Source: a virus
Virus record (IMG/VR): IMGVR_UViG_3300025930_000237
Span: 1-21,487 of that record
Length of the DNA stretch: 21,487 nt
Reading direction: 5' to 3' (one strand)
Shown here: positions 2,446 through 11,007 of the stretch, piece by piece
Layout of the letters: every line of letters begins with the position of its first letter
Numbering within the stretch: the stretch's first letter is position 1
Program-made: the position numbers and the translations under genes
The notes under the pieces: generated by a model
Seen by the model: the letters and a program-made list of their open reading frames with translations, nothing else
What the model was told of the DNA's origin: nothing
Database searches by the model: none

Positions 2446-3279
2446 ATGGCAAACGAAAAAATTTATGAAATGGTAACTAACAAAATTGTGGAGCAACTAG
2501 AAAAAGGCGTAGTGCCTTGGCGTAAACCTTGGGTAAATGGCGGCGCGGTATCTTGGAACACACAAAAAGCATACCGAGGCATTAACACAATGCTTTTAGA
2601 TGCCGGCGAATGGGCAACATTCAAGCAAATTAAAGAAGCAGGCGGCAAGGTTAAAAAAGGCTCTAAAAGTTCTTTTGTTATCTTCTTCAAATGGATTGAG
2701 AAAGAAGACAATGACGGCGAAATTGAACGTATTCCATTACTACGCTTTTACAACGTGTTTGAAATTAATACACAAGTTGAAGGCTTAGAAAGTAAACGCG
2801 GCGGCAAGGGTGACAGCTTCGACCATGACCCAATTAAAGCATGTGAAGACATTGTGAAAGGCTACTTGAATGCACCTAGCTACACATACGAGCGAAACGG
2901 CGCATGGTACCGACCAAGTGCCGACCAAGTGAACGTGCCGCCAATGAGCGACTTTACAAGCGCAGAAGAATTTTATAATACATTGTTCCACGAAATGACA
3001 CACAGCACCGGACATGCTAGCCGCTTAAACCGTGAAGGTGTAACAGGGCAAGTTAACTTTGGTTCACAGACTTACAGCAAAGAAGAATTAGTAGCCGAAA
3101 TGGGCGCGAGCTTCTTAATGGGTACGGCAGGCATTGAAGATTTTACACTAGAAAACACAGCTTCTTATATTGAGTCATGGCTACGCCAATTAAAGAAAGA
3201 CAAAACGCTTTTAGTAAGAGCCGCAGGACTAGCACAAAGAGCAACAGACCACATTTTAAATATTAAATGGGACAACTAA
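2446..3279 (+). CDS. ardC: ArdC-like antirestriction protein
   Basis: A 277-residue ArdC-family protein, as found on conjugative plasmids and some phages; family members bind single-stranded DNA and protect incoming DNA from host restriction. N-terminal ssDNA-binding domain about residues 3-125 (EKGVVPWRKPW and SWNTQKAYRGIN are typical), then a zincin metallopeptidase-like domain with HEMTHSTGH at 182-190 (ligands His182 and His186, Glu183) and a downstream KEELVAEMGA helix near 212-221 that supplies the third ligand. The metal site looks intact. ATG follows CAGGAGGCAATTAAA. Alone in its own promoter-leader cassette, so it is likely made early after DNA entry. Its presence agrees with the GATC and GGCC depletion of the window. 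Confidence 0.9.
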   Translation: MANEKIYEMVTNKIVEQLEKGVVPWRKPWVNGGAVSWNTQKAYRGINTMLLDAGEWATFKQIKEAGGKVKKGSKSSFVIFFKWIEKEDNDGEIERIPLLRFYNVFEINTQVEGLESKRGGKGDSFDHDPIKACEDIVKGYLNAPSYTYERNGAWYRPSADQVNVPPMSDFTSAEEFYNTLFHEMTHSTGHASRLNREGVTGQVNFGSQTYSKEELVAEMGASFLMGTAGIEDFTLENTASYIESWLRQLKKDKTLLVRAAGLAQRATDHILNIKWDN

Positions 3280-6776: not shown

Positions 6777-6926
6777 TTGGAATATAACGAAAAACAAGAA
6801 CTAGAAAGAATTAAAAAACTTATAGATAAAAAAGAAGAATTGCTACACAATCCATTCGCTAACATGCCTTTGTCAAGCGTTCAAAAAGCATTAAAGCTTT
6901 TAGAAGAGTATAGCGAGGAATTTTAA
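6777..6926 (+). CDS. Small helical hypothetical protein (49 aa), TTG start
   Basis: Reads as an acidic/basic helical protein (EYNEKQELERIKKLIDKK ... LKLLEEYSEEF). The TTG at 6777 has GGAAAGGG about 9 bases upstream, more convincing than the ATG-less longer frame that crosses the terminator. It lies between the terminator and the end of the converging repressor gene, and their stops overlap by 2 bases. With no visible promoter it depends on read-through; it may be a real early gene or weakly expressed. Confidence 0.5.
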   Translation: MEYNEKQELERIKKLIDKKEELLHNPFANMPLSSVQKALKLLEEYSEEF

Positions 6927-7348
6927 ATTTTCATGATTGTGTCGCCTTTTTCGACAAGCATAGCCTTTTGAGCGTCCGACATTTCTTGACCTTTCCATAA
7001 CACCGTGTCTCTTAAAAGCACGTTGTCGAAAACATCTTTGCTTGGGCGCTCCATTTCATCGGACAAACCATAAATAAAATCAAGTGAACAGTTATATAAG
7101 TTCGCCAATGTCAATAATACATGTGAGCTAGGGTAACGGTGATTTTGGTTTGATTCGCTCGCCTCGTAACCTTGTAAGGTTGAAGTAGCTAATTCTAAAC
7201 CATGTTCATTTTTAAGTAGCTCTACTACTTTTCGTAAGGATAAGTTTCTATGGTGTCTTACTTTTTTTAGTCGGTCATTAATTGGCAAATTAAATTTTGT
7301 GCGCTTCATATCCGCTTCTTTTGGAAAGCGTTTTGCAGTTGCAGGCAT
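6923..7348 (-). CDS. XRE-family HTH repressor (CI-like)
   Basis: A 141-residue DNA-binding protein, likely the lysogeny repressor. The XRE-type helix-turn-helix domain spans about 24-95 (RLKKVRHHRNLSLRKVVELL, then TSTLQGYEAS as recognition region, and HVLLTLANLYNCSLDFIYGLSDE as the typical domain end). The short C-terminal tail has no LexA/S24 self-cleavage domain, so induction must work differently from lambda CI, e.g. through an antirepressor or protease. ATG follows AAAGGAG. Transcribed leftward, divergent from the Cro-like gene at 7548, with the palindrome ATTCTAGTAGAAT and a shared early operator in the gap. The N-terminal 13 residues could be removed by an alternative start at 7309. Confidence 0.85.
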   Translation of the reverse strand: MPATAKRFPKEADMKRTKFNLPINDRLKKVRHHRNLSLRKVVELLKNEHGLELATSTLQGYEASESNQNHRYPSSHVLLTLANLYNCSLDFIYGLSDEMERPSKDVFDNVLLRDTVLWKGQEMSDAQKAMLVEKGDTIMKI

Positions 7349-7547: not shown

Positions 7548-7790
7548 ATGAAAAACATGAGAACAGGTTTAGTTAAAAATCGCAAAGGCGAAATGGTGGA
7601 GCGCCGCCAATGGTTAAAAGATATTCGCGCAGAAAAAGGGTTAACAGTGAGAGAAGCGGCACAAACGCTTGGCATGTCTTGGACGCATTTAAGTGATATT
7701 GAAAACGGCAGACGCCGACCAAGTTTAGAGTTAGCCGTTAAAATTGGGCATTTCTTTGGATTTGAAGCAGAAAAATTTATTGCGAATTGA
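7548..7790 (+). CDS. Cro-like XRE HTH regulator
   Basis: An 80-residue protein that is little more than an XRE helix-turn-helix domain: RRQWLKDIRAEKGLTVREAA (19-38), turn, recognition helix MSWTHLSDIENGRRRPS (43-59), and the closing helix LELAVKIGHFFGFEAEKFI. By position (divergent from the repressor, first gene of the rightward operon) it should act as the Cro-type regulator opposing it. ATG follows TTGGAGGAATTAAC. Ten bases separate it from the nuclease gene, whose message it shares. Confidence 0.88.
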   Translation: MKNMRTGLVKNRKGEMVERRQWLKDIRAEKGLTVREAAQTLGMSWTHLSDIENGRRRPSLELAVKIGHFFGFEAEKFIAN

Positions 7791-9689: not shown

Positions 9690-10256
9690 ATGAAGCATTT
9701 TAGAATACCGTACAGCATTTTAAGCCATGACATTATGCAAGCCGAACGCCAAATAGAATTAAGATTATTTCTAACTATTGTTGGCAACGCTTGTTATAAG
9801 GACGGCGTACAGGTGGCAAAGAGTCAAATAATTTTAGGGAAGGGGCAATGGTTACGAGCTAATAGGAAATTACAAAAAGATTTAAAAGCAAGCCCTAACA
9901 GCTTAACAAGGGCAATTGCTTGGCTAGTCGAAAAGAATTTAATATCTATTGAGCATGTAAGACTAGGAACTATTTTCACCGTTACAAGCTTTGAAATTTA
10001 TCAAGGAAATGAGCGTTATCGAGAGGATAACGCAAACAATTTAGCGTTATCGACAGAGAAGCGCAAAGAATTAGAGCGTTATCATGAGGATAACGAAGAG
10101 CGCTATCGAGAGGATAACAATACTAATAAAGATATAAATACTAATAAAAAAGATAATATATATCCTTTATCTAGTAGTAAGAACATAAAGGCAGGTTTTT
10201 ACGATGAAAGAGATACAAGCACTATTGAATGGGAAAAGTATGATTGGAAATTTTAA
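9690..10256 (+). CDS. Replication initiation protein (winged-helix, DnaD-like N-terminus)
   Basis: A 188-residue protein. The first 110 residues resemble the N-terminal winged-helix domain of Firmicutes phage replication proteins: MKHFRIPYSILS, then GQWLRANRKLQKDLKASPNS, LTRAIAWLVEKNLISIEHV and IFTVTSFEIYQ, the wing and the typical end of this domain. From 111 on it is low-complexity, with ERYREDN, ERYHEDN and ERYREDN repeats encoded by the iteron-like DNA at 10011-10119, then a KEWDKYDW-like tail that overlaps the loader gene by 53 bases. It probably binds the origin inside its own gene and recruits the loader. ATG follows AGGAAGGGG. Confidence 0.78.
   Translation: MKHFRIPYSILSHDIMQAERQIELRLFLTIVGNACYKDGVQVAKSQIILGKGQWLRANRKLQKDLKASPNSLTRAIAWLVEKNLISIEHVRLGTIFTVTSFEIYQGNERYREDNANNLALSTEKRKELERYHEDNEERYREDNNTNKDINTNKKDNIYPLSSSKNIKAGFYDERDTSTIEWEKYDWKF
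10011..10167. other. Candidate replication origin: iterons plus AT-rich element
   Basis: Copies of GAGCGTTATCGAGAGG-type units start at 10011, 10074 and 10098 (22 bases each, all ending GGATAAC) with a partial copy AGCGTTATCGA at 10043. Each full unit contains the dyad TATC/GATA, GTTATC with GATAAC in two of them. TTATCGACA at 10047-10055 is one base off a DnaA box (TTATCCACA). Directly after comes about 50 bases of nearly pure A/T (10117-10167) with TACTAATAAA twice. Iterons next to an AT-rich unwinding region inside the initiator gene match the lambda-type origin plan. Confidence 0.68.
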
Positions 10257-11007
10257 AGGCTTTGAAAAATGCGAAGGATGCCAAGAAGAAATAGAATTGG
10301 TTGAATATCCAATTATTGGCGGTCCGAACAAAGGGCAACCGGCTATTTTTAGAAAAGGTTGCAAATGTGAAGAGAGAAAGCTTGCAAAAGAAGCCTTAGA
10401 AGCAAGAGAAAGAGCCAAAAAGCAATATGCCTTAGATTTATTCGATTCTAAAAGCCTTATAAACGAGGATTTAAAAAAGGCAACACTTAAAAATTATATG
10501 CCAAAGAACCAAACGCATCAGAATGCCCTAGAATGGGCGGTAGACTATTGCAAGTCATTTAATACTAGAGAGAATAAAAAAGCGATTCTAGCCGGCTCCT
10601 ATGGCTTGGGTAAGTCACATTTAAGCGTAGGTGTGACCAAGTATCTTATGAGCCAAGGAATAACATGTATTTTTATAAGCGTGCCGAAATTATTCACACG
10701 CATTAAGAGCACATGGGAAAAAGAAAGCACAGTAAGAGAATTAGAACTGTTAGAAGCGCTTGAAACGGTTGACTTGCTTGTATTTGATGATTTTGGCGCC
10801 GGAAAGTGTACCGATTGGCAACTAGATAAACTATTTGAAATCATAGACAGCCGAGAAGGTAAGCACACTATTTTTACAACGAACTTAGATTCTAAAAGCC
10901 TTGTGAAATGGACAGGCAAACGGAACTTTGACCGGCTTTTACACCATACAGACGAAATTAAGTTTGAAGGTGAAAGCTACCGTTGGAAAGATAGAAGGAG
11001 GCATTAA
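10204..11007 (+). CDS. DnaC/DnaI-like helicase loader (AAA+ ATPase)
   Basis: A 267-residue AAA+ protein that would load the host replicative helicase at the phage origin. N-terminal zinc-binding part with CEGC (23-26) and CKC (53-55); helical linker; Walker A GSYGLGKS (131-138); Walker B LLVFDDFG (191-198); sensor-1-like TIFTTNLD (about 222-229); arginine-finger region RNFDRLLHH near 240-250. The order and lengths match DnaC/IstB family loaders of Bacillus phages. It overlaps the initiator gene by 53 bases in another frame; AGG lies 11 bases before ATG 10204, and an internal ATG at 10240 is possible. Probably binds the initiator C-terminus. Confidence 0.92.
   Translation: MKEIQALLNGKSMIGNFKGFEKCEGCQEEIELVEYPIIGGPNKGQPAIFRKGCKCEERKLAKEALEARERAKKQYALDLFDSKSLINEDLKKATLKNYMPKNQTHQNALEWAVDYCKSFNTRENKKAILAGSYGLGKSHLSVGVTKYLMSQGITCIFISVPKLFTRIKSTWEKESTVRELELLEALETVDLLVFDDFGAGKCTDWQLDKLFEIIDSREGKHTIFTTNLDSKSLVKWTGKRNFDRLLHHTDEIKFEGESYRWKDRRRH

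Follow-up and report, generated by a model that had tools for sequence, protein, structure and literature searches.

A probable replication origin of dyad repeats inside the winged-helix initiator gene of a temperate-type phage

The initiator gene, its repeat array, and its protein

The window, a 21,487-base IMG/VR virus record analyzed over its whole length, had the gene content of a temperate-type tailed phage, including genes for an integrase, HTH regulators, RecE/RecT, an initiator, a DnaC-like helicase loader, RecU, and terminase, together with head genes (Table 1). An ArdC-like protein encoded at 2446-3279 combined an N-terminal anti-restriction domain with a zincin metallopeptidase domain. 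GC skew along the window was uninformative, showing a steady bias towards the coding strand. The loader gene that the initial annotation had placed next to the initiator gene was confirmed by matches to the Pfam family IstB_IS21 (1.7e-17) and to the PHROG DnaC-like helicase loader (7.5e-70). A 40-kb contig shared the initiator-loader segment at 100% identity, and a DnaC-seeded search for diverged relatives returned near-identical contigs only; the contigs of the window's own lineage were so similar that they offered no usable variation.

Table 1. Features of the initiator locus and the HTH regulator genes (window positions)
Feature	Position	Strand	Description
HTH regulators	6926-7348 and 7548-7787		Pfam
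Initiator gene	9690..10256	+	188 aa; PHROG DnaD-like/O-like matches, AlphaFold, viral fold matches
Dyad 1, perfect	10014..10032		CGTTATC-GAGAG-GATAACG
Orphan half-site CGTTATC, partial unit 2	10045..10051	+	other reading frame, encodes part of LALSTEK
Dyad 3, perfect	10077..10095		CGTTATC-ATGAG-GATAACG
Dyad 4, outer bases degenerate	10101..10119		CGCTATC-GAGAG-GATAACA
A/T tract, presumed unwinding element	10114..10163		90% A/T
DnaC-like helicase loader	10204..11007	+	267 aa; start overlaps initiator gene end

Seven CGTTATC/GATAACG half-sites lay in the initiator gene, starting at 10014 (+), 10026 (-), 10045 (+), 10077 (+), 10089 (-), 10101 (+), and 10113 (-), the last two with one mismatch each, and five of the window's eight exact CGTTATC copies fell inside 82 bp of the array. 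Dyads of the form GTTATC-N5-GATAAC occurred at 10015-10031 and 10078-10094 (both exact) and at 10102-10118 (one mismatch), with only the left half remaining of unit 2 at 10045; these are the dyad-bearing repeat units recognized initially, and direct-repeat and tandem-repeat tools also detected the array. With up to two mismatches allowed, shuffles of the window gave a mean of 0.7 dyads per 21.5 kb, against three in the real window, all within 104 bp, and no further copy was found at this tolerance elsewhere in the window, intergenic regions included. The related 40-kb contig had no additional dyad either. The half-sites are inverted in a 6-5-6 geometry, so that the centre distance within a dyad is 11 bp. 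Counted from the first, the half-site centres lie at 0, 11, 31, 63, 74, 87, and 98 bp, so units 1 to 3 lie close to a common helical phase and the final unit is off by about 0.3 turn.

The A/T tract abuts the array and exceeds every other 50-bp stretch of the window in A/T content; its initial description as nearly pure A/T was slightly strong. An 18-bp direct repeat, GATAACAATACTAATAAA/GATATAAATACTAATAAA, which includes TACTAATAA, lies at 10113-10148. The octamer TACTAATA of this tract also recurs every 15 bp in the putative origin annotated for Staphylococcus phage 80alpha. A DnaA box had been proposed at TTATCGACA (10047-10055); this is a one-mismatch match whose TTATC belongs to a half-site, and the window holds nine such matches against 4.5 +/- 2.2 expected, so that the match carries no weight.

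In an AlphaFold model built on a 17-sequence alignment, which superseded a single-sequence model with a pLDDT of 39, a winged-helix domain spanned residues 21 to 106 or thereabouts of the initiator (pLDDT about 80 to 90), with the presumed recognition helix at residues 69 to 81 and the wing strands at residues 85 to 98. Residues 107 to 158, whose codons make up the array and the beginning of the A/T tract, had a pLDDT of <50, and the array-encoded linker between the winged helix and a short tail is predicted to be disordered. Named viral fold matches were mostly replisome organizers, plus one DnaD-domain protein. Fold matches to solved structures were weak and went to generic winged helices, 4pt7 (“Structure of initiator”) among them, with none below an E value of 0.001, and a sequence search of solved structures returned nothing relevant. 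The DnaD-like family phrog_2514 matched over residues 9 to 159 (9.6e-15), with the N-terminal winged-helix part fitting the family; the match broke off at position 159 of the 270-position profile, and the window initiator has no C-terminal DnaD-like domain. The O-like family phrog_345 matched weakly (3.1e-06), and Pfam gave no family match, neither to Phage_rep_O (PF04492) nor to RepA_N. By its profile matches, the window protein is a DnaD-like or replisome-organizer-type winged-helix protein and, as far as Pfam places it, not an O protein. Its tail, EWEKYDWKF (window 10164-10253), resembles the ARKYDLPF tail of the Bacillus phage Pony protein and is possibly a loader- or helicase-contact peptide. 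Most GTTATC users have an Asn at the start of the presumed recognition helix; this candidate recognition residue was dropped, since the window protein has Ser at the position.

Homologous initiators and selection on the repeats

The array encodes ERYREDN, ERYHEDN, and ERYREDN, the ERY(R/H)EDN peptides noted initially, and the orphan half-site is read in another frame, not as ERYREDN. Random synonymous recoding of the array peptide produced a mean of 1.2 half-sites versus six observed (P = 5e-5); for the two dyads, the corresponding P value was 0.004.

Sixteen homologs of about 32 to 41% identity (Bacillus phage Pony, L126, and the IMG/VR relatives L134 to L147 and L149), a set dominated by one phage group, all carried repeats at the same place, directly after the winged-helix end (YQG or YQD). 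Runs of nnGAAC half-sites advanced in steps of exactly 11 bp in 14 of the 16, and the steps in L136 and L137 were 12 or 23 bp instead. Since 11 is not a multiple of three, the repeat falls into each reading frame in turn and encodes differing peptides; lag-11 self-similarity exceeded that of synonymous recoding in the same 14 homologs (P <= 0.0125). The repeat run usually ended with GAACAATAA(T/G), followed by an A/T-rich stretch, the window counterpart being GATAACAATACTAATAAAGATA, and the 50 bp that follow the final half-site ranked in the gene's top 3% for A/T in 12 of the 16 homologs, with the automatic pick of the last half-site having overshot into the A/T tract in L126 and L134.

The initial proposal that selection acted on the DNA was thus upheld by the out-of-frame half-site, the recoding result, and the homologs' 11-bp register. 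The contrary pattern, relatives keeping the peptides and losing the DNA repeats, was the opposite of what was seen, with repeated DNA kept in a helical register and peptides that differ. As the homologs keep the position and the DNA periodicity and not the peptides, the peptide repeats stem from DNA selection, and the comparison by itself shows that DNA rather than protein constraints dictate the initiator linkers in these phages.

Pony and its relatives resemble the window in their homologous winged-helix domain, in the position of the array, and in the junction between array and A/T stretch. They differ in having head-to-tail half-sites (nnGAAC in 11-bp steps), whereas those of the window are head-to-head, and in the size of their proteins (245 to 328 aa versus 188 aa), which match families further and carry an extra C-terminal domain absent from the window protein. 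Both arrangements have an 11-bp centre distance, so that half-site orientation appears to have switched within one initiator family while the one-turn spacing stayed. A literature search found no description of Pony-type arrays as origins.

The dyad in other phages

IMG/VR was scanned for GTTATC-N5-GATAAC with a further GTTATC behind it, which yielded 105 stretches, and 22 of these remained when at least three clustered units were demanded. In 20 of the 22, the array lay in a gene matching replication-initiator families or in a clear sibling of such a gene; the array genes of the remaining two, L070 and L115, had no family match. With phage groups told apart by family matches, about six further groups, true lambda-O relatives included, had dyad arrays inside their initiator genes. 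The array genes encoded the following: Phage_rep_O proteins in the L034 group (31.7% identical to lambda-type O across 36% of the query); proteins matching Phage_rep_O below Pfam's cut-off in L041 and L060; PHROG O-like proteins in the L038/L067/L093 group; and DnaD-like proteins in L055 and L087. The window's kin were also among the array carriers, and the named isolate Paraburkholderia phage IPK, whose initiator is O-type, carried four dyad units. A DnaC-like loader was encoded by the next gene in L067 and L093, and a DnaB helicase was encoded shortly downstream in L087. Units alternated frames in several array genes, e.g., YQNDN plus VIETIT or VINTIT plus YQDDN. In L060, four GTTATC dyads (1414-1512) began within the final codons of an O-like open reading frame of 140 aa and continued past its stop codon, and the array there is therefore mostly non-coding.

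Two control arms were scanned. GTATTC, of the same composition, gave no such array in 73 stretches, and TGTCAT gave nine in 110, two of them (L258 and L334) within a single plausible initiator gene, with the others being different repeats. Set against these results (0/73 and at most 2/110), the 20 of 22 initiator arrays indicate that the dyad is favoured by several initiator groups, without being exclusive to them. The tandem TGTCAT-N5-ATGACA dyads at L258:4250-4329 and L334:3521-3600 lie inside a probable initiator and encode YDTGG peptide repeats, which suggests that further operator classes exist.

Viral matches with one dyad and a half-site were set aside, since many were due to chance or driven by protein, a porin-like family that carries GTTATCGTGGTGATAAC being one example. 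A scan of genome contigs for tandem dyads gave eight matches with one clear initiator (L118, Caballeronia). A Verrucomicrobia MAG contig (L123:6899-7440) contained 20 units in a 21-bp register, in which GTTATCGATTTGATAAC-like dyads alternate with GTTGTCTCCGAGAGAAC-like ones, and no initiator was recognized at that locus.

Tentatively, and with rather less than even confidence, we suggest that GTTATC/GATAAC is a recurrent operator of several barely similar winged-helix initiator families, the lambda-O relatives among them, the unit being a pair of half-sites 11 bp apart that flips between head-to-tail, as in the window's relatives, and head-to-head, as in the window and lambda, while the origin stays in the linker. 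If so, phages could cross-activate or disturb one another's origins. The GTTATC dyad as a phage origin element was not found in a search of mainly open-access literature.

A candidate origin, its alternatives, and known systems

The array at 10014-10119 and the A/T tract to about position 10163 very probably constitute the replication origin of the phage, located inside its own initiator gene, and both the layout and the relatives' arrays support the origin-in-initiator reading given initially. The N-terminal winged-helix domain would bind the GTTATC/GATAAC half-sites, with each dyad holding two monomers spaced by 11 bp, one turn of the helix. With several dyads occupied, and the first three separated by nearly whole numbers of turns, the DNA would be wrapped or strained and the adjoining A/T tract opened. 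The initiator, perhaps via its short C-terminal tail, would then recruit the DnaC-like loader encoded by the next gene, which would put the host's replicative helicase onto the opened DNA; this may be the only origin that the phage uses. Several observations count against the origin reading: just one full dyad pair is perfect, with half of unit 2 gone; the closest homologs of the window initiator have direct, not inverted, half-sites; and the C-terminal domain of those homologs is missing from the window protein, a difficulty for its presumed contact with the loader.

It is very unlikely that the dyads are simply operators through which the initiator or a phage HTH regulator controls transcription into the loader gene. 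Dyads of 6-5-6 geometry are typical of operators too, and the window encodes HTH regulators (Table 1), but promoter-like signals around the array showed no excess, and the dyad, unlike repressor operators, is absent from the intergenic DNA of both the window and the 40-kb contig. Such control would also leave the adjacent A/T tract and the conserved position within initiators unexplained, although autoregulation by the initiator may be an additional role of the dyads. Slightly less probable still is selection of the ERY(R/H)EDN peptide for a role as charged linker or in contacts with protein, with the DNA repeat as the trace of an in-frame duplication. Three of the four units do share a frame and encode near-identical heptapeptides; the fourth half-site, however, is out of frame, the half-sites exceed synonymous recoding, the homologs' 11-bp steps shift the frame so that the peptides differ, the dyad in other phages encodes two peptides via two frames of one gene, and the array-encoded segment is predicted to be disordered.

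The least likely explanation is that the dyads form RNA hairpins in the initiator transcript, serving attenuation or translational coupling to the loader. Each perfect dyad can fold into a 7- to 8-bp stem with a 5-nt loop, and dyad 1 has a terminator-like score on its minus strand, of a kind about as frequent in shuffles. At the corresponding place, however, the homologs have direct repeats, which do not fold in this way, and the A/T tract would be left unexplained.

If the array is an origin, helically phased half-sites just 3' of a winged-helix domain would provide a rule for locating phage origins. In addition, with one dyad turning up in unrelated initiators, cross-recognition of origins between phages can be put to the test, and direct versus inverted half-sites within one family are material for a half-site recognition code.

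The lambda plan invoked initially held for the layout of initiator, loader, and A/T tract, which matches lambda, SPP1, TP901-1/r1t, and RepA_N plasmids, but not for the protein, which lacks the Phage_rep_O match of the lambda O family. In lambda and its Stx-phage relatives, the origin lies inside gene O (PMC7466680). As in the window, the lambda origin has 6-5-6 dyad iterons after the winged-helix part, an adjacent A/T-rich tract, and a loader gene next door; the annotated iterons (TCCCTC-AAAAC-GAGGGA) differ from those of the window in their arms (TCCCTC versus GTTATC), and the loader is P rather than DnaC-like. In SPP1 (gp38/oriL), TP901-1 (Orf13), Tuc2009, and r1t, the replisome organizer gene contains binding repeats and an A/T-rich region (PMC6316719, PMC8965321). 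These Gram-positive phages resemble the window in having a DnaD-like or replisome-organizer protein with in-gene repeats and an A/T-rich region and, in r1t, an adjoining DnaC-like loader. Their repeats are direct, whereas those of the window are inverted, SPP1 being set beside the window by description. The TP901-1 rep gene had neither 11-bp phasing nor the GTTATC dyad, and the 80alpha gene had no 11-bp phasing; the best lag was 15 bp in both, arising from A/T-rich repeats. The RepA_N protein pSK41 Rep has a winged-helix DnaD-like N-domain, with origin boxes midway along the rep gene and an ori-encoded, dispensable linker (PMC5703833). The RepA_N proteins thus share the winged-helix N-domain and in-gene origin boxes with the window, whose initiator had its weak fold match to 4pt7, but they belong to a plasmid system without an adjacent loader gene, and the window protein has no RepA_N match. 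Half-site binding by the winged helix, opening of the A/T tract, and recruitment of the loader would together follow the plan of lambda O/P, SPP1 gp38/gp39, and pSK41 Rep (PMC7466680, PMC6316719, PMC8965321, PMC5703833). An origin within the initiator gene is therefore a known plan, of which the repeat sequence and geometry described here are, on the present comparison, a new variant that recurs in several unrelated phages.
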